21,448 bases of DNA, taken from IMG/VR virus record IMGVR_UViG_3300030104_006072, positions 1 through 21,448 of that record, one strand, 5' to 3'. Both the position numbers and the translations under genes were made by a program. Shown here in pieces: positions 890 through 14,332 of this stretch. Every line of letters begins with the position of its first letter. Position 1 is the first letter of the stretch. Under the pieces are notes generated by a model that saw only the letters and a list, made by a program, of their open reading frames with translations, had not been told where the DNA came from and did no database searches. Source of the DNA: a virus.

Positions 890-2782
890 ATGGCTGACGA
901 CTATAATTCAAACGATGGAAACAATCCTCGCAATAAACAATCAGGGCTCTTCAAGCGCCTAACAAGACTTTTCAGTGGTCCTATCGTGGACTACGATCGC
1001 CCTGCTGTTGTTCGCACGAACCGCAGTGATGTTAAGAAGTATACTTTCACTACTGGAACTGGTCGTGAGTTCAAAAAGAAAGAATATTACAATCCTTTTG
1101 GATCACTCAGTAATAAAGTACTGACAGCTAGAAACAAACAGATCAGGTATACTGATTTTGATCAAATGGAATACATGCCAGAGATCGCCTCTACTTTAGA
1201 CATTTATGCAGATGAGATTACTACGTCAACAGTCTTTAATCCAATTGTGGCTGTTGATTGTTCTAATCGCGAGATCAAAGATATTCTAACAACTTTGATG
1301 TATACTGTGTTGAATATTGAATCAAATCTATTCGGCTGGGCACGCAGCATGTGCAAGTATGGTGATTATTATCTTTATATGGATATTGATGACAAGCTTG
1401 GAATTACAAATGCTATTCCTCTACCAGTCCGTGAGATTGAAAGAATTGAGGGCACAGATAAAACAAATCCAAATTATATTCAATACTTCTGGCAGGGCGC
1501 AGAAGGTAATAAAGGCGTAACCTTTGAAAATTGGCAAGTCTGCCATTTCAGAGTTTTGGGTAATGACAAGTATGTTCCAAACGGAACATCAGTACTTGAG
1601 CCATCTCGCCGTATTTGGCGACAGCTTACTTTGCTTGAAGATGCCATGATGGCATATCGTATTGTTCGCTCTCCAGAGCGACGTGTCTTTTATATTGATG
1701 TTGGAAATATCTCACCCGAAGATGTTGAGCAATACATTGAGCAAGTCAAAACACAAATGAAGCGCAACCAAATCGTTGAAGAAGACAGCGGTCGTGTTGA
1801 TTTGCGCTATAATGCCATGAGTGTTGATGAAGATTATTATATTCCAATTCGTGGAGCAGCCAGCAACACAAGAATTGAAACACTGGCAGGTGGGCAGTTC
1901 ACAGGTGATATTGATGATGTCAACTATCTCCGTGATAAATTATTCTCAGCCCTCAAGGTGCCAAAGGCTTACCTAGCCCAGACTGACGCCATTGAAGATA
2001 AGACAACCTTGTCTCAAAAGGATATCCGCTTTGCCCGCACAATCCAGAGGCTTCAAAGGGTTGTTGTAGCTGAGTTGGAAAAGATGTGTATTATCCATCT
2101 TTATACTCTAGGTTTCCGCGATGTAGACTTAACTTCATTTAATCTAACTTTGAACAATCCATCCAAGATTGCAGAACTCCAAGAACTTGAACACATGCGT
2201 ACCAAGTTTGATATTGCAGGCGCTGCAACAGATGGGTACTTCTCTAAGCGTTGGGTATACAAGAACATCTTCAAGTTGGACAACGAAGAAGTTGAAAGAA
2301 TGCAGATTGAAATGTATGGCGACGCCAAATTCGGCTCAGCAATTGAAGAAGCAGGAACAATACCAGACACAGAAACCGGTATGGGCGGCGATGAAGATTT
2401 TGGTGATATGCTTGGTGGTGACGATACCGCCGCAGAAGAGACACCAGAAGAAGACCCAGGGGCACTTTTAGCAGAGCCAGAGCCTGGACAGCGAGACGAT
2501 GGAAAACCCAGGGGTCGTCAAAAGCGAGGAGCCAGATTGAGATCTGATCTTGCTAAAGCCGGAGGAGAGTCTGCAAAGCCTGGCAATAGGAATAAGAGGA
2601 GACTATTTAATGGAGGAGACTCCATAACTAAACAGCTTATCCGCCCAATGGATTCTCTAGGTAACGGAATAGTCAGAACTAGAGAGTCGGTAGATAAAGA
2701 GGAAGAGATCTTGTTTAATAATCAATATGAAATTGGCAAGCTTATAGAACAATTGGAAAGTAAAGATGAAGGTCAAGCATAA
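890..2782 (+). CDS. 20: Portal vertex protein (T4 gp20-like) with long charged C-terminal tail
   Basis: Dodecameric portal at the unique capsid vertex, through which the terminase pumps DNA and to which the neck attaches. Typical gp20 stretches are visible: YMPEIASTLDIYADEI near residue 100, the wing/stem region with RIWRQLTLLEDAMMAYRIVR, ERRVFYIDVGN, and LRDKLFSALKVPKAYLAQ followed by KDIRFARTIQRLQRVV. At 630 aa it is about 100 aa longer than T4 gp20. The extra length is a C-terminal tail: residues about 493-535 are very acidic (Asp/Glu/Gly/Pro), then about 536-600 are basic (KPRGRQKRGARLR), then a short helical end. An AAGGA site precedes the ATG. The last 17 bases overlap the next gene. 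The tail is likely disordered; its role is unknown. Confidence 0.93.
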   Translation: MADDYNSNDGNNPRNKQSGLFKRLTRLFSGPIVDYDRPAVVRTNRSDVKKYTFTTGTGREFKKKEYYNPFGSLSNKVLTARNKQIRYTDFDQMEYMPEIASTLDIYADEITTSTVFNPIVAVDCSNREIKDILTTLMYTVLNIESNLFGWARSMCKYGDYYLYMDIDDKLGITNAIPLPVREIERIEGTDKTNPNYIQYFWQGAEGNKGVTFENWQVCHFRVLGNDKYVPNGTSVLEPSRRIWRQLTLLEDAMMAYRIVRSPERRVFYIDVGNISPEDVEQYIEQVKTQMKRNQIVEEDSGRVDLRYNAMSVDEDYYIPIRGAASNTRIETLAGGQFTGDIDDVNYLRDKLFSALKVPKAYLAQTDAIEDKTTLSQKDIRFARTIQRLQRVVVAELEKMCIIHLYTLGFRDVDLTSFNLTLNNPSKIAELQELEHMRTKFDIAGAATDGYFSKRWVYKNIFKLDNEEVERMQIEMYGDAKFGSAIEEAGTIPDTETGMGGDEDFGDMLGGDDTAAEETPEEDPGALLAEPEPGQRDDGKPRGRQKRGARLRSDLAKAGGESAKPGNRNKRRLFNGGDSITKQLIRPMDSLGNGIVRTRESVDKEEEILFNNQYEIGKLIEQLESKDEGQA

Positions 2783-3590
2783 CAAAAAGAGAAACACTGC
2801 TTTCTTGTTTGAAGCATTGGTTCGCGAATTAACAAAATCAGTTGTCAGTAGCGACAAATCCCGCTCCGCCGCCGCAAAAAAGATTCTCTCCGAACATTTC
2901 CGGAAAGGACACACTCTTCATGAAGAGGTTGACTGCTATAAATCAGTTGTAGGAAGACAGGGACTAGATTCTAGTATAGCTACAAGAGTCTTAGAATTAG
3001 CCAAAGAAACTTACGGCAAATTAGATTCTGAAGAGATTTTCAGAGAGCAGTCACAAGTTATCAAAAAAATAAACACTACACTAGGAAAGTCGGTATATAA
3101 TAACTTTGTACCAAATTATAAATCATTTGCTACCGTCGCACAGATCTTCGGAGAGAAGGCTCCAATCAAGAGTCGGGTGCTCATGGAGCAAGCAATAGTT
3201 CAGGAACTAACTTTGGACCCTGATGCCAAAGAAGACATGCAACCTGTTGACAGCTTAGTGGTTTCCAGATTCACTAAGAGATTCAATGAGCAATACTCTG
3301 ATATGCTTGAAGAGCAGCAACAGTTGCTAGGAAAGTATATTGTTTCTTTCGGACAGAACGAGATTGATTTCCGTGTTCATATTGGCACAGAACTTCAACG
3401 CCTCAGAGGGGCTGTACAAGAGTCTTTAGAAATGGAAGAAGTAAAAAAAGACGAACAAATGACTGCAAACACAAAATCAGTCCTAAGTCAGATAGATGAG
3501 ATGCACATTTCAAATATAACTGAAAAAGATATCCTGAAGATTCTAAAACTTCAGAAACTAGTGAGAGAGTATCAATCAAATGCCGATTAA
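2766..3590 (+). CDS. Unrecognised protein in the prohead-core slot
   Basis: 274 aa, predicted mostly helical and charged, with no signal peptide or membrane segment. It begins with a basic stretch (MKVKHNKKRNTAFLFEALV) and carries Gln/Glu-rich helices around residues 175-195 (MLEEQQQLLGKY) and 215-235. The start overlaps the portal gene by 17 bases and has GGAAAG upstream, so translation is probably coupled to the portal. In T4 the genes between portal and protease encode small prohead core proteins (gp67, gp68). Position suggests a core or head-assembly role, but I see no sequence match to those, so the function is inference only. The reading frame is clean and intact. Confidence 0.8.
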   Translation: MKVKHNKKRNTAFLFEALVRELTKSVVSSDKSRSAAAKKILSEHFRKGHTLHEEVDCYKSVVGRQGLDSSIATRVLELAKETYGKLDSEEIFREQSQVIKKINTTLGKSVYNNFVPNYKSFATVAQIFGEKAPIKSRVLMEQAIVQELTLDPDAKEDMQPVDSLVVSRFTKRFNEQYSDMLEEQQQLLGKYIVSFGQNEIDFRVHIGTELQRLRGAVQESLEMEEVKKDEQMTANTKSVLSQIDEMHISNITEKDILKILKLQKLVREYQSNAD

Positions 3591-4119
3591 TATTTCCTTC
3601 CAAAAGAGACAACCAGCAGTTCAAGCACAAATCCCACTTAAGATCTCCAAGACCTTAGACGGAAATTTGATCATTGATGATCATGATTGTATGGACATTG
3701 TGGTTAATCCAATGGAGGGAAGGATAATAACTCTTCCAAAGCCATATGCAGAGAAAGATGTATATGAGTATCAAAGAGACTTGATGTATTTTCTCTTCAA
3801 GGGTGGAGTCACAGATGCAGCGGTCCCAACTGGCGGTTCAGCCTTTGGAATGGTAGAAGCAACTTATCCAACCAAGAGTTCAATACATATCAATTCATTA
3901 CAGTCTGTTTTGTATTTGATAAGTGAATATATTGCAACAACTGCCCACGATGAAGATGTCGCCAAAGAGTATGACAAAAACATTGAAGACAGGTTTGTTG
4001 ATCCACCAGATTCAGAGACCACAGCCCTGGGACAAATTCAACCATACGAAGACAACCCCGAAGCTAGTCAGACTGGTGATCCCACTTACTCTTTTGCCGG
4101 CTATGGTTACTACTACTAG
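3580..4119 (+). CDS. Unrecognised protein, second gene in the prohead-core slot
   Basis: 179 aa. The ATG lies inside the 3' end of the previous gene (11-base overlap), indicating coupled translation. Residues 1-120 look like a compact domain with alternating strands and a helix (DVYEYQRDLMYFLFKGG, then SVLYLISEYIATTAHDEDV). The C-terminal 50 residues are low-complexity, rich in Pro, Asp, Thr and Tyr, and end in an aromatic run (YSFAGYGYYY). No family recognised. Location between portal and protease suggests a head-assembly or virion role, by position only. Confidence 0.78.
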   Translation: MPINISFQKRQPAVQAQIPLKISKTLDGNLIIDDHDCMDIVVNPMEGRIITLPKPYAEKDVYEYQRDLMYFLFKGGVTDAAVPTGGSAFGMVEATYPTKSSIHINSLQSVLYLISEYIATTAHDEDVAKEYDKNIEDRFVDPPDSETTALGQIQPYEDNPEASQTGDPTYSFAGYGYYY

Positions 4120-4131
4120 AAAGAAGTATTT

Positions 4132-4476
4132 GTGGAATTAGCATATTTTATACTGTCCTGTTATGGACTAACTCAAATTTTAGTTTACTCAAAAATTTTA
4201 GAACCGATTCGTCCAAAACATCATTTCTTTCATTGTCCGATGTGTATAGGTTTTTGGGCAGGGGCTCTTCTTCTGTTCCTAAACCCATTTACAGAACTAT
4301 TTACCTTTGATGTTTCTTTGATAAATGCCCTACTGCTAGGTTGTTTATCATCTGGAACATCTTATGCGTTATGTATGCTCATATCGGACGGAGGATTTCA
4401 ACATGAATACCGAACTAGAAGGGATGTGGACGCAAAAATGGAGACTGAGACCAGTCGCCAGGTGTTGCAGGGGTAG
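4132..4476 (+). CDS. Small membrane protein with CPMCxGFW motif (DUF1360-like)
   Basis: 114 aa, GTG start with an AGAAAGAAG purine stretch just upstream, which decides the start. Three hydrophobic segments are visible: residues about 2-20, 38-52 and 60-84. Between the first and second is HCPMCIGFWAG (Cys35, Cys38), the hallmark CP-C-GFW motif of DUF1360 (YjcA-type) membrane proteins. The C-terminal 25 residues are charged and presumably cytoplasmic. The family has no firm biochemical role that I know of; the cysteine pair could bind metal or form a disulfide. A membrane protein between head genes is unusual: it might place head assembly at the membrane or simply be a co-expressed late accessory. 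The 3' end overlaps a possible 34-aa frame at 4403-4507. Confidence 0.75.
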   Translation: MELAYFILSCYGLTQILVYSKILEPIRPKHHFFHCPMCIGFWAGALLLFLNPFTELFTFDVSLINALLLGCLSSGTSYALCMLISDGGFQHEYRTRRDVDAKMETETSRQVLQG

Positions 4477-4507
4477 CAGTATCGTGCGGGTAGCGCCCGC
4501 ACTCTAA
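4403..4507 (+). CDS. Possible 34-aa overlapping small protein with strong SD
   Basis: A short frame begins at ATG 4403, eight bases after a perfect GGAGG (4390-4394), which lies inside the membrane-protein gene and out of frame with it. It reads MNTELEGMWTQKWRLRPV, then an Arg/Cys-rich stretch (ARCCRGSSIVRVAPAL), and stops at TAA 4505-4507. That stop overlaps the AAGGAG used by the next gene (start 4518), an arrangement typical of translational coupling. Against it: it is very short, it ends through a hairpin, and an SD-like site can arise by chance inside a gene. The function is unknown. I rate it a candidate. Confidence 0.35.
   Translation: MNTELEGMWTQKWRLRPVARCCRGSSIVRVAPAL
4484..4502 (+). 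other. GC-rich stem-loop upstream of the 4518 gene
   Basis: Arms GTGCGGG (4484-4490) and CCCGCAC (4496-4502) form a perfect 7-bp stem with a TAGCG loop. No T-run follows; the next bases are TCTAAGGAG, which holds the SD of the gene at 4518. It is therefore more likely an RNA processing, stabilising or translation-tuning hairpin than a Rho-independent terminator. Confidence 0.55.
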
Positions 4508-4517
4508 GGAGAATATT

Positions 4518-4907
4518 ATGAAGATCACAAAATCACAACTAAGAAAGATCATCAAAGAAGAAGTTTCAAAAGTTCTTTTGGAAGAGGAAGAATCCTCCTT
4601 TATGGATGCGTACAGAAAAGCCGAAGCCGAAAAGGACCCCGAAGAAAGAGAGGGACTCTTTCAATTAGCGTATAATGATGCTGACTCGGACGATGAAGTT
4701 GATAAATTCCTTAGTAAACTTAAGGCTGATGGTCTTGATAAAGAGTACGAGGACTTTTCCAGACCGATGGATCTTGAGATGTCTCGCCACGTTCACGGAA
4801 AGGGAAAGTCCTATCCCAAATTCGGAGGAGCGATGCAGAAAAGAGGAGATGAACAAGAAGCCAAAGCCAGAGCAGCCCGCCTGAGAAAACAAGGAAAGAT
4901 AAAATGA
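4518..4907 (+). CDS. Small charged protein with putative capsid-targeting N-terminus
   Basis: 129 aa, strong SD (AAGGAG, 4506-4511). It opens with an amphipathic basic helix, MKITKSQLRKIIKEEVSKV, then LLEEEE. This contains the T4 prohead-protease consensus [I/L]-x-E at residues 12-14 (IKE) and 20-22 (LLE). The rest is hydrophilic: an acidic middle and a basic Lys/Arg/Ala-rich C-terminus that could contact DNA. The stop overlaps the protease gene in an ATGA, so the two are translated together. The same N-terminal pattern recurs in the gene after the protease (5524). By analogy with T4 internal proteins, whose short N-terminal capsid-targeting sequence is removed by gp21, I infer a packaged or core protein; the body itself matches no family I know. 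Confidence 0.75.
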   Translation: MKITKSQLRKIIKEEVSKVLLEEEESSFMDAYRKAEAEKDPEEREGLFQLAYNDADSDDEVDKFLSKLKADGLDKEYEDFSRPMDLEMSRHVHGKGKSYPKFGGAMQKRGDEQEAKARAARLRKQGKIK

Positions 4908-5506
4908 CAAGCAAATACATTCTACAAGAGTTCATGAATCTAGATTACAGCAACAGTCTTCTCACTGAAGAGGAGCGCCAAGGTAATATTGACGGAATTC
5001 ACCTCGTAGTAGCAGGACCAATCCAGAGAGCCAATAAACCAAACGGAAACCAGAGAGTTTACCCAAAAGGATTGTTAGAAAGAGAGATGAAGAACTATGA
5101 CAAGTTAGTTAAAGAGCGCCGAGCAACAGGCGAACTAGATCACCCAGATAAGCAAGAAATTAGATTAACTCACGTCAGCCATCTTGTTACCGAGGTGTGG
5201 TGGAATGGTGATGACGTCATGGGCAAGATCAAGATTTTGGACACGCCTGCCGGCAAAATTGCAAAGCAACTGGTTGAGGGCGGCGTTCAACTTGGAATCT
5301 CTAGTCGTGGTCTTGGGTCTACTCGTCAAGAAAACGGTGTGACCATAGTTGAAGACGACTTCCAGCTTGTTTGTTTTGACTTGGTTTCTGAGCCAAGCAC
5401 AGCCGGCGCATTCTTGGTCGCAGAAAGCAAAATGAGAGAACGCCTAACAAATCTTACTAAAGCAGATCGCATTAATCGTGTCCTTAATGATATTTTGGGC
5501 GCATAA
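4904..5506 (+). CDS. 21: Prohead core maturation protease (T4 gp21-like)
   Basis: Serine protease that degrades the scaffold and trims capsid proteins before DNA packaging. At 200 aa it is close to T4 gp21. The herpesvirus-assemblin-like catalytic layout is visible: His80 in TGELDHPD, Ser133/134 in GISSRGLG, and the conserved strand FDLVSEPSTAGAF (159-170) that carries the supporting acidic residue. N-terminal PIQRANKPNGNQRVYPK is the family's opening signature. Its own N-terminus contains LQE (7-9) and LTE (20-22), possible self-cleavage sites. It starts in an ATGA overlap with the gene upstream. The position between portal and scaffold/capsid genes is the expected one. The first of the two serines is probably the nucleophile, but I cannot settle that from sequence alone. 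Confidence 0.93.
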   Translation: MTSKYILQEFMNLDYSNSLLTEEERQGNIDGIHLVVAGPIQRANKPNGNQRVYPKGLLEREMKNYDKLVKERRATGELDHPDKQEIRLTHVSHLVTEVWWNGDDVMGKIKILDTPAGKIAKQLVEGGVQLGISSRGLGSTRQENGVTIVEDDFQLVCFDLVSEPSTAGAFLVAESKMRERLTNLTKADRINRVLNDILGA

Positions 5507-5523
5507 TAAAAAAAGAGGTTATA

Positions 5524-5952
5524 ATGAAAAAGTCGGAACTTAAATTACTAATCAAGGAATGTATAAAAGAAGTCATCTTTGAGGATGGTATCTTATCTGG
5601 GATTATAACAGAAGTTGCCAGTGGCATGAACACTGTAAATACAAGAGCAACAAGCCAGACCAACGCACCTTTGATGGAAGAAGTTGCCAAACAGAGCGCC
5701 CAAGCATCTGATCTATTGGATGCTCACCGTAAAGAGGTCATGGATGCTGTGGCTTCCAACAATTATGATGACTTGAAGAAGAAATTTTCAAACCCTGAAT
5801 TCTTTGCCGGCACACAGCCGATACAGGAAGGTAAAGGACAATCAGCCCTATCAAATGTTCAGCCCGGTGACGCCGGACTAGACATCAGCAGCATACCAGG
5901 CTTCGGTCATTGGGGATCTGTAGCACAAACATTAGAAAGCAATAAACGATGA
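5524..5952 (+). CDS. Small protein with putative capsid-targeting N-terminus, paralogous start to the 4518 product
   Basis: 142 aa, preceded by AAAGAGG. The first 20 residues (MKKSELKLLIKECIKEVIFE) align with those of the 4518 product as K-S-[QE]-L-[KR]-x-x-I-K-E-x-[IV]. They hold repeated [I/L]-x-E motifs: IKE 10-12, IKE 14-16, IFE 18-20 and ITE 28-30. The remainder is a hydrophilic, probably helical middle (VAKQSAQASDLLDAHRKEV) and a Gly/Pro-rich C-terminus (SIPGFGHWGSVAQTLE). It directly follows the protease gene and its stop overlaps the bS21 start (ATGA). I infer a prohead core or internal head protein processed by the protease. No known family is recognised for the body. Confidence 0.72.
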   Translation: MKKSELKLLIKECIKEVIFEDGILSGIITEVASGMNTVNTRATSQTNAPLMEEVAKQSAQASDLLDAHRKEVMDAVASNNYDDLKKKFSNPEFFAGTQPIQEGKGQSALSNVQPGDAGLDISSIPGFGHWGSVAQTLESNKR

Positions 5953-6239
5953 GAAGAAATTACAACCACAGAAGAAACAAGAACAACAAAATTGATACTT
6001 GCGTAACCGTCCGAGCCGAAGAGTGCAAGGGCGACGCAGAGAAAATGGTCCGCAAGTTTTGCAAGAAAGTAAAGCGTGATGGAATCATTGATGAGTTTAG
6101 AGACCGAACCCATTATACGAAACCAAGTGTGAAGGGAGCGGAAAGAAGAAGAGCAAAGAAAAGACTCATAGCTCAGGTGAATAGAAAAAGAAACGAACTA
6201 TTTACAGCTAGAGATAACTTTAAGAGGAGAAGACGTTAA
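5949..6239 (+). CDS. rpsU: Phage-encoded ribosomal protein bS21 homologue
   Basis: 96 aa, strongly basic. Residues about 17-80 follow the bS21 pattern: VTVRAEE, then RKFCKKVKRDGIIDEFRDR, then THYTKPS, then a Lys/Arg-rich helix. Compared from memory with E. coli S21, the anchors F, G, E-x-R-x-R, Y and KP are in register. It is longer than bacterial S21 (about 70 aa) because of an Arg/Asn-rich N-terminal extension and a basic C-terminal extension (FKRRRR). bS21 sits on the 30S platform near the anti-SD and helps initiation. The start is fixed by the ATGA overlap with the gene upstream, and the next gene begins in its stop (TAATG), so it is embedded in the late head operon. bS21 genes have been reported in many phages; incorporation into host ribosomes late in infection is the likely role but is inferred here. 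Confidence 0.85.
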   Translation: MRRNYNHRRNKNNKIDTCVTVRAEECKGDAEKMVRKFCKKVKRDGIIDEFRDRTHYTKPSVKGAERRRAKKRLIAQVNRKRNELFTARDNFKRRRR

Positions 6240-6670
6240 TGGGATACTCACCAGATCAAAGCGCACATTTTAAGGGTTTTTATGACAGGGGTCCAGGGAT
6301 CTCTAGTGTTGGTTCTTATCAGATTGCGGGAACTCCTTTTATCACAGGTAGTGCTGTTGCTAATGGTGCAGAGGTTCAAGTAAATTTCCCAACTGTCACA
6401 AGATCAATTACAATCATCAACAAAGATGCGTCGGGCAATGATGCTGTCAGGGTTCACTTCGCTCCTCAAGCAGATGCTTGTACTGCTGGCAAACTTCACT
6501 TTATTACGCTTGACGCAAAGAACTCATCGGTAACAATGAATGTAAAGGCAAAATCTGTCTGGATTTCAAATGACTCTGGTAATGCTAGTAACTTTGAATT
6601 GTTTGCAGAACTAACAGGAATCAATGAAGGCGCTATGTGGACTTTGACCGGCGCTGGCATTGACGCTTAA
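6239..6670 (+). CDS. Putative small virion structural protein
   Basis: 143 aa, start overlapping the bS21 stop by one base (TAATG). It looks like an all-beta protein: after a flexible N-terminus (DRGPGISSVGSY) come alternating strands such as EVQVNFPTVTRSITIINK, AVRVHFAP, KLHFITLDA and SVTMNVKAKSVWISN. This composition is usual for capsid decoration, adaptor or fibre-base proteins. There is no signal peptide, membrane segment or catalytic motif. It is followed 15 bases later by a fibre-like gene, suggesting the two act together on the capsid surface. No family was identified; the structural role is inferred. Confidence 0.7.
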   Translation: MGYSPDQSAHFKGFYDRGPGISSVGSYQIAGTPFITGSAVANGAEVQVNFPTVTRSITIINKDASGNDAVRVHFAPQADACTAGKLHFITLDAKNSSVTMNVKAKSVWISNDSGNASNFELFAELTGINEGAMWTLTGAGIDA

Positions 6671-8482: not shown

Positions 8483-8576
8483 TCTCACGAAGTAACATTT
8501 TCAGATTTCTCGTCGTTTACTAAAGTAAATAACTATTTATTCTTGATGTATTATCATCAAACGAGAGGATTCATAT
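8483..8576 (+). promoter_or_regulatory. Leader of the scaffold/capsid genes with AT-rich inverted repeats
   Basis: This 94-base gap holds three nested inverted repeats: TTTACT-AA-AGTAAA (8516-8529), TAAATA-AC-TATTTA (8526-8539) and TTGATG-TATTAT-CATCAA (8543-8560), then the GAGAGGA ribosome site. The stretch TAAATAACTATT (8526-8537) resembles the T4 late promoter of gene 23 (TATAAATA followed by CTATT) as I remember it. The ACTATTTATT at 8532-8541 recurs in other leaders of this window. It is probably a late promoter or regulatory leader for scaffold and capsid protein; this is not proven. Confidence 0.45.
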
Positions 8577-9656
8577 ATGTCTAATATGCTAGAGCAGGCA
8601 ATTGTTGACGCAAAAACCCTACGTGAAGCTGCAATGAAGAACGCCGAAACGGCTGTCGTTGAGAAATACTCCGACGAAGTTCGTGATGCAGTTAGTAAGC
8701 TTTTGGAGCAGGAAGATTTTGATCTTGGGCTTGAAGCCACAACAGAAGAATCCCCAGCTTCAGAGGTTCCTGAAGAAACTGAGGAGACACTTGACCAGGC
8801 ACCACCCGCCCATCTTTCCAAAGATGAAACTATTGTTATTGATTTGAATGACATTGGCAAGACCCTTGGAAAAGAGTTGGCTTCAGGCGAAGCTAGCACT
8901 GAAGATGGTGTACCTCGCGAAGAGATGATTGATAATCTAGAGGTAGATGCCGCCGTAGCTGAAGAAGCTCCAGGCAACCGCTCAGATGATGAAGAAATTG
9001 AAATCAATGAAGAAGAATTAGCAAACTTGTTTAAAGAGATGCTATCTTCAGACGATACAGAGGTTGTTGAAGAGGTTAAGACAAAGGATCAACTTGAAAT
9101 TGATGAAGCCCAAGGTGATAAGATTGAAAAAGAAAACAAAGAAGATCACCCTCATGAAGCAGATCCTTACTCTGAACACGCTGAACTAGTTCGCAGTGAT
9201 TACACTGACGGAATGGAAGCAGAAGATATTGCTTGGCGCGAAAGAGCACAGAAGTCTGAACAACTCACTGAAGAAAACAACAATCTTAAAAAAGAAATTG
9301 CCAAACTTAAGGAAATCCTTGGTACGGCAAAAACCACACTTGAAGAAATAAACTTGCAAAACGCAAGGTTATTGTATGCGAATCGTGTTCTCGGAGACTC
9401 CTCCTTGAATGAGCAGCAAAAAAACAAAATTGCTGAGATGGTCGATAAGGCACGGTCGGTAGAAGAAGCGAAGTTGATATTTGAAACCCTTCAAAAGACA
9501 ATGGCGGGCACAGAAAGAAAGACCCCACAATCATTGTCTGAAGCAGTATCTAAATCTTCCTCGGTTATTCTTGGCGGGAATCGTAGAGATGAGCGCACTA
9601 CCGACGAGAACCCAACAAAAAATCGTTGGGCAACACTCGCAGGTCTTAAACACTGA
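8577..9656 (+). CDS. 22: Prohead scaffold / core protein (T4 gp22-like)
   Basis: 359 aa, very acidic in the N-terminal two thirds (many Glu/Asp), then a coiled coil at about residues 225-275 (QLTEENNNLKKEIAKLKE) running into LQNARLLYANRVLGD and NEQQKNKIAEMVDKARSVEEAKLIFETL, the conserved C-terminal signature of gp22 proteins. It acts as the internal core on which the major capsid protein assembles and is then degraded by the prohead protease; [I/L]-x-E sites such as LRE and LLE are present near the N-terminus. It lies 24 bases before the capsid gene, the order found in T4. The start is supported by GAGAGGA. Confidence 0.9.
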   Translation: MSNMLEQAIVDAKTLREAAMKNAETAVVEKYSDEVRDAVSKLLEQEDFDLGLEATTEESPASEVPEETEETLDQAPPAHLSKDETIVIDLNDIGKTLGKELASGEASTEDGVPREEMIDNLEVDAAVAEEAPGNRSDDEEIEINEEELANLFKEMLSSDDTEVVEEVKTKDQLEIDEAQGDKIEKENKEDHPHEADPYSEHAELVRSDYTDGMEAEDIAWRERAQKSEQLTEENNNLKKEIAKLKEILGTAKTTLEEINLQNARLLYANRVLGDSSLNEQQKNKIAEMVDKARSVEEAKLIFETLQKTMAGTERKTPQSLSEAVSKSSSVILGGNRRDERTTDENPTKNRWATLAGLKH

Positions 9657-9680: not shown

Positions 9681-11414
9681 ATGTCAGTATTAGAAACACT
9701 CACAGAAGGTATCAAGGCTCGTTCCTTGGCCTCAGAGGGTGAAGCACTTTTACAAAAGTGGGAAAAGACTGGTCTTCTAGAGGGACTAAATGATGTTACT
9801 CGTAACAACATGGCTCGCCTCCTAGAAAACCAAGCCGGTCAACTTCTCAAAGAATCCAGCACAATGGCGCAGGGTGACGTACAAGGCTTCTCCGCAGTTG
9901 CATTTCCAATCGTTCGTCGTGTATTCGGCAATCTATTGGCACAGGATCTTGTATCCGTTCAACCAATGAGCCTCCCATCAGGTCTCATTTTCTTCATGGA
10001 CTTTACCTACAACAGCGCAATGGCTGCTGATGGTGCGGTCGCCGCCGAATCCCTCTACGGTGGTAACGTAGTTGCTAGCCAGTTGACTGGTGGTGTTGAC
10101 TTGGGTTCCGACCCAGCAACGGCCCCAGAAAAGAGCTTCTATTCCCTCAACAACGGTTACGGAATGGCAACAGCTAGTGCTGGTGACATCAATGCTCACT
10201 TGGACGCTGGTTCAAACATCGGTGCTTCAGTAGCTTATGGTGCGCTCACGGCAGTTCACGTTGCTCGCCTAGCAGGCGACCCCGATATTCTTGAGTACAT
10301 GTCTAGTAACGCTACTGCTGAAGTTATTGAGCTTAGGGTTCCTGTTGGTTCCGGTGTCGGTGAAGTTGATGCCGTGTTCCCACGTCTCAACAAGGACAAC
10401 CTCGGTGCTATTGATATTGCTAACACCCCAGCTAATGGCGTTCAAGTTCGTCGTTTGACCCGTTTTGAGTCTAACGGTGACCTTAGCTTTATCTTGTTCC
10501 ATGATAACGGCGCTGCTGCCAAAAATGGCAACGCTACTGCCACGTACAACATCGCTGATAACTTTGGTGGCACTGCCCCAATCGGTGGCGTTGCACCTAC
10601 TACAACGTGGCCATTAGAAGCTGAAGCAGCACTCAAGGAAATTGACATCAAAGTTGATTCCGTAGCTGTCACAGCAATGACCCGTAAGCTCAAGGCTAAA
10701 TGGAGCCCCGAGCTTGCTCAAGATTTGAACGCTTATCATAACCTTGACGCTGAAGTTGAGCTTACAAGCATTCTTTCTGAGCAGATCGCTCTTGAAATTG
10801 ATCAAGAGATCCTTAAGGACCTCGTTGAAGGCGCAACCGCTGGTACATTGTACTGGTCACGCAGCCCAGGCAAGTTCCTTAACCGTGAAAGCGGCGCTGC
10901 TGTTGACCCAGGTGCAGCCACCCTGGCATATCCTGACTTCACAGGTACCGTATCCGAGTGGTACGAAACTCTTCTTGAGACTGTGAACGACGTAAGTGCT
11001 CGTATTCACCGTAAGACACTTCGTGGCGGCGCTAACTTCCTAGTTACCTCCCCAGAAGTAGCTTCCATTCTTGAGTTCACCAGCGGTTTCCGCGCTTCTA
11101 CTTCCGTAGATAGCGATCAAACCGGCTCCTGGGGTGCCCAAGCCATTGGTTCTATCAACCGTAAGATGGACATTCATGTAGATCCATACTTCCCACGTAA
11201 CCTTCTTCTAGTTGGTCGTCGTGGTGGCAGCTTCCTAGAAAGCGGCTATGTGTATGCTCCTTACGTGCCACTACAAGTCACGCCCACCATCTTTGGTGTA
11301 GAAGATTTCGTGCCCCGCAAGGGCGTCATGACTCGCTACGCCAAGAAGATGGTTCGTCCTGACATGTATGGTGTTGTTGTCTGCCGCGATTTGGTTGTCA
11401 ATACTGACGTATAA
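9681..11414 (+). CDS. 23: Major capsid protein (T4 gp23-like)
   Basis: 577 aa (T4 gp23 is 521). It is the HK97-fold shell protein. The N-terminus has the classic gp23 prodomain: LLQKWEKTGLLEG, then NNMARLLENQAGQLLKESS. T4-type protease sites are LLE (47-49) and LKE (56-58); cleavage after Glu58 would correspond to the removal of the N-terminal prodomain in gp23. Then come VQGFSAVAFPIVRRVFGNL and LPSGLIFFMDF, and near the end VEDFVPRKGVMTRYAKKMVRPDMYGVV, all typical of the family. The SD is AAGGAG. All Arg codons I read are CGT or CGC (no AGA/AGG), unlike neighbouring genes, in keeping with very high expression. A terminator follows at 11455. Confidence 0.96.
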   Translation: MSVLETLTEGIKARSLASEGEALLQKWEKTGLLEGLNDVTRNNMARLLENQAGQLLKESSTMAQGDVQGFSAVAFPIVRRVFGNLLAQDLVSVQPMSLPSGLIFFMDFTYNSAMAADGAVAAESLYGGNVVASQLTGGVDLGSDPATAPEKSFYSLNNGYGMATASAGDINAHLDAGSNIGASVAYGALTAVHVARLAGDPDILEYMSSNATAEVIELRVPVGSGVGEVDAVFPRLNKDNLGAIDIANTPANGVQVRRLTRFESNGDLSFILFHDNGAAAKNGNATATYNIADNFGGTAPIGGVAPTTTWPLEAEAALKEIDIKVDSVAVTAMTRKLKAKWSPELAQDLNAYHNLDAEVELTSILSEQIALEIDQEILKDLVEGATAGTLYWSRSPGKFLNRESGAAVDPGAATLAYPDFTGTVSEWYETLLETVNDVSARIHRKTLRGGANFLVTSPEVASILEFTSGFRASTSVDSDQTGSWGAQAIGSINRKMDIHVDPYFPRNLLLVGRRGGSFLESGYVYAPYVPLQVTPTIFGVEDFVPRKGVMTRYAKKMVRPDMYGVVVCRDLVVNTDV

Positions 11415-14220: not shown

Positions 14221-14332
14221 CCATAAAAGGATATTGGTGGGTGTTTGGATTTATCAGCTACTATTTATTAGTAGCATTTAGTATGTCTATGCTAGCATAA
14301 TAGCGTTTTTACAACGAGGAGAAGGATTTTCA
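14221..14332 (+). promoter_or_regulatory. Leader of the tail sheath gene with hairpin and palindrome
   Basis: The 112-base gap contains a 7-bp hairpin, GCTACTA/TAGTAGC with loop TTTAT (14257-14275), whose 5' arm and loop include ACTATTTATT (14260-14269), identical to a motif upstream of the scaffold gene. A perfect 12-base palindrome TATGCTAGCATA lies at 14288-14299, followed by TAGCGTTTTT. The SD GAGGAGAAGG precedes the start. A T4-late-like GATAAATA lies just upstream at 14203-14210, inside the end of the gp15-like gene. It is probably a late promoter and leader for the highly expressed sheath. Confidence 0.45.

Follow-up and report, generated by a model that had tools for sequence, protein, structure and literature searches.

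What do two small proteins encoded on either side of a prohead protease gene have in common that they should begin alike and then diverge? The answer proposed here is that the N-terminus of the first of them, the product of the gene at position 4518, is a protease-cleaved capsid-targeting tag on an exchangeable head cargo that is probably delivered with the DNA, a reading to which we give a probability of about 0.72. The window, by which we mean the whole stretch of 21,448 nucleotides that was analysed, makes up most of a 23,253-base viral record.

Gene order in the window

The window has a head gene order of the T4 type, running from the end of the terminase gene through the portal gene, three small genes and the gene at 4518 to the S77 prohead protease gene, and then through the gene at 5524, a bS21 gene and further genes to a likely scaffold gene and a gp23-like capsid gene. 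The protease ORF (4904-5506) matches Peptidase_S77 with 98.8 bits against a family cut-off of 27, and the PHROG head maturation protease at 5.6e-53. The scaffold candidate was assigned by position, as it has no PHROG match and its Pfam matches are weak and unrelated. The features used below are as follows.

890..2782, + strand: portal protein gp20 (PF07230, E 1.1e-78)
4518-4907, + strand: 4518 protein, 129 aa, starting MKITKSQLRKIIKEEVSKVLLEEE
4518..4586, + strand: type I module (putative capsid-targeting sequence), 23 codons, MKITKSQLRKIIKEEVSKVLLEE, with candidate cleavage sites IIKE and VLLE
4587..4907, + strand: putative cargo body of the 4518 protein, for which a single-sequence model gives a largely helical fold
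4904..5506, + strand: prohead protease gp21 (Peptidase_S77; PF03420, E 3.8e-28)
5524..5952, + strand: 5524 protein, 142 aa, probable prohead-core component, starting MKKSELKLLIKECIKEVIFEDG; conserved, 3' of gp21
5524..5625, + strand: N-terminus of the 5524 protein, a module-like helix with repeated [LI]xE (LIKE, CIKE, VIFE, IITE)
8533..8539, + strand: CTATTTA, candidate late-promoter element before the scaffold gene
8577..9656, + strand: likely prohead scaffold protein, in the gp22 position just before the capsid gene; pI 4.4
9681..11414, + strand: major capsid protein (gp23-like), with inferred cleavage after LLKE, residues 55-58
9843..9854, + strand: LLKE site of the capsid protein, resembling the module IIKE

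Two neighbouring genes may be mentioned in passing. The ribosomal protein bS21 gene (5949-6239; PF01165, E 3.7e-8) directly follows 5524, and a bS21 neighbour is likewise present in Microcystis phage Mel-JY01. A small gene between the portal gene and 4518 (4132-4476) has a weak DUF1360 match (E 6.6e-4, just under the cut-off), and relatives of its product adjoin gp21 in related loci.

The shared N-terminus

The first-pass annotation had noticed two small proteins with a shared N-terminus flanking the prohead protease, and this is borne out: both ORFs are present with Peptidase_S77 between them, the two do have the core KS[QE]L[KR]xxIKE in common, a second [LI]xE site (VLLE in 4518, VIFE in 5524) lies in register and the bodies differ. 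With a weight matrix trained on module proteins, where 4518 was part of the training set and 5524 was outside it, 4518 ranked first (54.5) and 5524 second (8.3) among the window ORFs. The best null scores were 4.0 for reversed and 1.4 for shuffled sequences (1278 ORFs) and -2.1 among 1003 internal segments, and the N-terminal similarity of 4518 and 5524 thus exceeds the reversed, shuffled and internal controls. Structure models, which are too weak to support a fold search, place an N-terminal helix at residues 5-21 of 4518 (single-sequence model, pLDDT 67.7) and at residues 3-20 of 5524 (pLDDT 63.5). The two are not an equivalent pair. Among 80 relatives of the protease, the 4518 start is found on different bodies, and proteins with the 5524 start make up a single family next to the protease. 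The 5524 gene family is conserved, and 4518 is exchangeable.

Spread of the module

The start of the 4518 protein is a common module, MK[IL]TKxQL[KR]xIIKEE (hereafter type I), for which 384 distinct proteins were collected. The strict DNA pattern MK[ILV]TKxxL[KR]x[LIVMF]IKEE occurs in at least 120 stretches of the viral collection, and with its codons in reverse order it has no match there. A looser pattern occurs at 129 places, and backwards at none, in 20 large records, namely the record of the window's nearest relative (record G001, locus L001), which was reached through gp21, and 19 records of at least 65 kb among the strict-pattern matches listed. An HMM of the first 24 residues found 203 matches in the 20 records, with up to 27, 26, 23 and 22 per record, although not all of these matches were confirmed as protein starts. 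The suggestion that the signature could be used to find more cargo has therefore proved fruitful. Module genes often stand in tandem arrays, and in one locus (L282) the strict motif is found in 17 of 19 consecutive ORFs. The looser pattern had no match in the 14 S77 phages of the phage collection, where tblastn found one record with the 23-residue consensus and none with the whole 4518 protein, short queries being insensitive in that search.

The consensus of 333 complete proteins is MK[IL]TK[SR]QL[KR]xIIKEE[LI]xxLLxE, in which the residues fixed by the collecting patterns, E14 included, are conserved by construction. Module proteins shorter than 40 aa (4/337) and incomplete ORFs were left out, and from the 384-protein set also proteins with masked residues. 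A check free of the patterns used ORFs picked by residues 1-8 only, in 100 loci chosen by gp21 (81 loci plus 19 stretches, 17 of which came from module-chosen viral records and 2 from MAGs). Of 23 such ORFs, 21 had E14 and 19 had the core [LIVMF][IVL][KRQN]E; in 120 random loci two ORFs matched in residues 1-8, and both lacked E14. A second site, [LIVMF]xE[ASGTN], which the patterns do not require, lies within residues 16-27 in 36% of the proteins, compared to 11% after shuffling and 2-6% further along the sequence. The residue after IIKE (P1') is mostly E in the module (81%), whereas it is A in T4.

Seven of 382 module proteins have a further copy of the module inside or at the C-terminal end besides the N-terminal one (L149:4014-4706, L163:7169-7822, L135:69-1523, L174:484-1608, L216:336-1004, L219:1607-2395 and L262:4218-4988). 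These copies could be fused cargo or C-terminal tags, and the latter would be comparable to the C-terminal processing reported for T4 Alt (PMC9026906).

Exchange of bodies at the module border

Comparison of the window with its nearest relative, whose protease is 95% identical, revealed homology at 3418-4586 (89%) and again from 4891 to 6300 (88%), where the comparison ended. Between these, at 4587-4890, there is no DNA homology and the relative has an unrelated body, so that only the body of 4518 has been replaced. Homology is lost within codon 23, immediately past the second LxE site. The same was seen among 64 pairs of module genes in which upstream homology enters the gene: the homology stops at nucleotides 38-72 in 59 pairs, later in one, and runs through in four, and it resumes downstream in 40 of the 59 early-stop pairs, which are not independent (62 genes in 21 groups). 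Control genes of the same loci, which unlike the module genes were not collected by their first codons, stop early in 43 of 361 pairs; the proportion is 26/329 for those without a core-like motif versus 17/28 for those with one. DNA homology between relatives therefore spans the upstream DNA and the module and ends at the end of the module. While the upstream DNA and the tag stay fixed, the bodies that follow are swapped as cassettes, and the module is the exchange border.

The 5524 family and the prohead core

Members of the 5524 family share 18 invariant columns over 29 sequences, and there are 12 more distant members. Residues 1-34 of the 5524 protein contain four [LI]xE sites, and its body contains a further two. 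Six members from more distant records score 11 to 27 with the module matrix and other members score below zero; together with the resemblance of the 5524 N-terminus to the module, these six scores speak for a common origin. Given the repeated [LI]xE sites, the conserved position and the lack of any exchange seen, 5524 is probably a conserved prohead-core component rather than cargo. Against the gp67/gp68 core families, 5524 had no Pfam match at E 0.1, and its only PHROG match (0.055) was to a virion structural protein. The view of 5524 as a cargo protein is accordingly not supported, as it is a single conserved family 3' of gp21 with repeated [LI]xE sites in both N-terminus and body.

One possibility is that what holds for 5524 holds for both proteins, and that the shared N-terminus is a scaffold-binding helix of core proteins that are degraded in maturation, like T4 gp67 and gp68. 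The sites crowded into the start of 5524, its conservation and its place by gp21 agree with this, and 4518 stands in the gp67/gp68 position. A core part should be conserved, however, and in close relatives the 4518 slot holds unrelated bodies. Moreover, the number of module matches in the richest records seems too large for a scaffold, and the body of 4518 has no [LI]xE site inside. We consider this explanation unlikely, although it is the strongest of the alternatives to a cargo tag.

Link to the S77 protease and the inferred capsid cleavage site

S77 was present in 17 of the 19 module-chosen large records, the two without it being of 74 and 91 kb. The count becomes 18 of 20 with the record of the nearest relative, but the search that led to that record used gp21, and its S77 therefore carries no weight. 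Among random viral contigs, S77 occurred in 3 of 49 of at least 10 kb (taken from 80 listed random records and not size-matched) and in 1 of 5 of at least 60 kb. Fisher tests gave p values of 4e-11 against the former and 0.006 against the latter, a size-matched baseline that is tiny (5 contigs). At the strict score, 9 of 97 loci have a module gene immediately 5' of gp21.

The module core also resembles the site at which the capsid protein of the same lineage appears to be cut. By comparison with T2 gp23, the capsid propeptide ends in LLKE in all 24 distinct N-termini of near relatives. More distant capsid N-termini have LLKE, LLRE, VLRE or QLRE in 16 stretches, no capsid gene having been found in 3 of 19. 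The module core is IIKE or IIRE, resembling the inferred capsid-protein cleavage site LL[KR]E. Judged by eye, covariation at P2 between module and capsid is not tight, and records with an LLRE capsid often have IIKE modules. A pairing of this type exists in T4-type phages, with FLTE in the T2 gp23 capsid protein and FIAE in T4 IPII and IPIII; T4 IPI (MKTFKEFTST...) has no FIxE. As an aside, three loci (L046, L265 and L274) have two adjacent and very similar major capsid protein genes.

In a paper on the T4 system, the gp21 cleavage site is given as L/I-x-E, and mutagenesis of the IPIII tag assigned targeting to residues 4 and 7 and processing to residues 8 and 10 (PMC9026906). The module residues L8, I11, I12 and E14 have the same spacing as these key residues. 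The module is basic (pI 9.8) and the likely scaffold protein acidic (pI 4.4), and the latter is the proposed partner of the module. The idea of a modular, T4-like capsid-targeting sequence is supported by a tag on hundreds of unrelated proteins, its co-occurrence with S77, its likeness to the capsid site and the exchange border; the part of the original interpretation that made 5524 a cargo is not supported.

Nature of the bodies

Clustering of 378 bodies from the set of 382 (blastp E 1e-3) gave 307 clusters, 262 of them singletons. The module proteins are small (median length 109.5 aa). Among 145 cluster representatives, 26 Pfam families were found at E 0.01, each in one or two members, and judged by these searches few bodies carry a known domain. 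An RMF match in one of the 145 could not be traced to the suspected protein and was not used.

T4 internal proteins are described as basic (PMC9026906), and the bodies do not follow them in this: among 365 bodies the median pI is 4.8 and 21% are above 8, compared to 6.1 and 35% for 445 other ORFs. Internal [LI]xE sites are found in the bodies at 0.97 times the shuffled expectation (1.19 in control ORFs, which came from a simple longest-ORF caller and some of which are not genes), so depletion is not clear, and [LIVMF][LI][KR]E is in excess (2.17, with 1.82 in the control). The acidic bodies, the lack of clear internal-site depletion and the E at P1' count against the cleaved capsid-targeting tag proposed here.

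A second tag

Control genes in which homology breaks early drew attention to another conserved start, MKLLxENWRKFLxE (type II), which with its arrangement aromatic-x-x-[FY]-[LIV]-x-E resembles the T4 tag more closely. The type II pattern occurs in the viral collection at least as often as the matches listed, with 7 for the codon-reversed control, and comprises 162 proteins in 92 body clusters. When the regular expression was applied to the same 5968 ORFs, 11 reversed proteins matched. S77 was present in 9 of the 16 type II records examined among the matches listed, and in 7 of 7 of those above 130 kb. Type II genes occur in 9 of the 20 type I records versus none of 15 phage-collection records. 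Exchange at the end of the type II start is weaker (10 of 19 pairs). Type II loci include L085, L149, L255 and L301-L409, and the tag was not seen in the window.

Type II bodies include NUDIX, acetyltransferase, methyltransferase, M23 peptidase, amidase and HAD-like domains, and one has a weak ADP-ribosyltransferase match (E 2.8e-4, under its cut-off). Such enzymes fit injected effectors; they could also have a role in the cytoplasm, and they weigh equally in both directions. This bears on another alternative, in which the tag sends proteins elsewhere, to the membrane, the replication compartment or the tail, and S77 is merely a marker of the lineage. Co-occurrence with S77 could follow from descent, the cytoplasm could be the place of action of type II bodies of the NUDIX, acetyltransferase, methyltransferase and HAD-like kinds, and the prevalent E at P1' also speaks for it. 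What speaks against such a destination is that the IIKE core resembles the lineage's own capsid cleavage site, along with the second site, the slots adjoining gp21 and the T4-tag spacing, and we regard it as improbable, slightly more so than a pair of core proteins.

Sequence upstream of the module

The heptamer CTATTTA is a candidate late-promoter element. It is present in six copies in the window, all on the coding strand and four of them inside genes; the copy at 8533-8539 precedes the scaffold gene by 44 bases, and that at 14261-14267 precedes the sheath gene by 72. CTATTTA is enriched upstream of module genes (24/362 versus 3.1 shuffled), and the T4 late promoter TATAAATA is not (1/362). 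That the conserved start is just a recombination or expression leader, made up of common upstream DNA, ribosome site and first codons, for swapping accessory genes, its peptide having no targeting role, would suit this enrichment and the homology that covers upstream DNA as well as module, but it is highly improbable, as the peptide core persists in loci selected independently of the module, module copies also lie inside or at the end of proteins, and synonymous codons vary widely within the module, an observation that shows only that the DNA is free because the collecting pattern fixed the residues.

Occurrence in MAGs and in huge and cultured phages

In 84,980 bacterial and archaeal species genomes, the strict pattern was found in eight stretches on five MAG contigs. 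S77 is present in two of the five MAGs with the tag, and the other three show none. One contig, NHDW01000006.1 (305,838 bases; L257, L261 and L262), was binned as Methylococcaceae; since it has S77 and 18 module genes, it looks like a phage contig and is very likely a misbinned jumbo phage. The module HMM also picked out the huge phage LR756508.1 (484-kb), which encodes S77 together with several module-like proteins (9 matches at E 0.01). Among cultured phages, Flavobacterium phage vB_FspM_immuto (immuto; host Flavobacterium sp. LMO8) combines S77 with a single module protein, QQO92108.1, starting MKKSQLRQIIKEALDAS, which makes the idea testable in the laboratory.

Proposed mechanism and its significance

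How might the tag act? We propose that some 14-23 residues form a basic amphipathic helix, which would bind to the acidic core of scaffold as the prohead assembles and thereby trap in the head any protein attached behind it. The S77 protease would then cut after [IL]-x-E, at IIKE and/or at the LLxE eight residues later, and free the body, which may remain beside the DNA and probably passes into the host together with it. The 4518 gene would occupy an exchangeable cargo slot just 5' of the protease gene, and 5524 would use a related helix as a conserved component of the prohead core. The steps from scaffold binding through cleavage and packaging or retention in the head to injection are those that we infer.

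A broader reading is that uncultured S77 phages have a general loading code, with at least two tags (MKITKxQLKxIIKEE and MKLLxENWRKFLxE) that load exchangeable effector sets for delivery, and we think the odds of this about even. It would give such phages rapidly exchanged effector sets, with more than twenty effectors per phage in the largest genomes. Proteins delivered by phages are hard to find because they rarely share sequence. If the reading is true, the injected effectors of a phage could be read from its sequence alone, also in huge phages such as the 484-kb LR756508.1, and the tag would point to hundreds of proteins as candidate first-minute effectors, for anti-defence or host takeover, most of them with no known domain. 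Each virus would have a swappable arsenal of proteins carried into bacteria, provided that the tag loads the head. The tag also allows the choice of cargo by a T4-type head to be tested directly, and where proteins are to be delivered into bacteria it may find use as a new packaging tag.

Comparison with known systems

Giant phage SPN3US has many head proteins, some with propeptides that are removed by the prohead protease. The accessible descriptions of its ejection proteins state no short tag common to unrelated bodies, and on these descriptions SPN3US is set apart. T4 gp67 and gp68 are encoded beside gp21 between portal and scaffold, as 4518 and 5524 are here, and 5524 resembles them in its several [LI]xE sites; it differs in having no family match and in lying 3' rather than 5' of gp21.

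The closest counterpart is the set of capsid-targeting sequences of T4 (IPI, IPII, IPIII and Alt, substrates of gp21). A conserved tag with diverse bodies has already been described for T-even phages (PMC3012670, PMC9026906). By their titles, papers on the 'capsid targeting sequence' appear to concern T4 and other named phages, and neither of the present tags is described in the open literature as far as titles and the beginnings of abstracts tell. The original paper on the conserved tag and its diverse bodies in T-even phages is said to be Repoila 1994. As far as these searches show, the tags are new, as are the scale on which they occur, their arrays and the swapping of bodies at their border.

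In both systems a short N-terminal tag stands on unrelated small proteins, ends in [LI]-x-E and occurs in a phage with gp21, and the hydrophobic-x-x-hydrophobic-[IL]-x-E spacing of T4 IPII and IPIII is also present in the module. The tag itself is different, longer and often followed by a second site; its genes form tandem arrays, its bodies are acidic, matches number up to 27 per record rather than a few, and it is known from sequence alone and mainly from uncultured lineages. Neither T4 nor 11 further S77 phages in the phage collection gave a match to the module HMM, so the module is not the T4 tag, MKTYQEFIAE, with which it agrees in the spacing of the key residues only. The system is therefore best described, on the sequence comparisons made here, as one that would work like the T4 capsid-targeting sequences while standing outside their sequence family.
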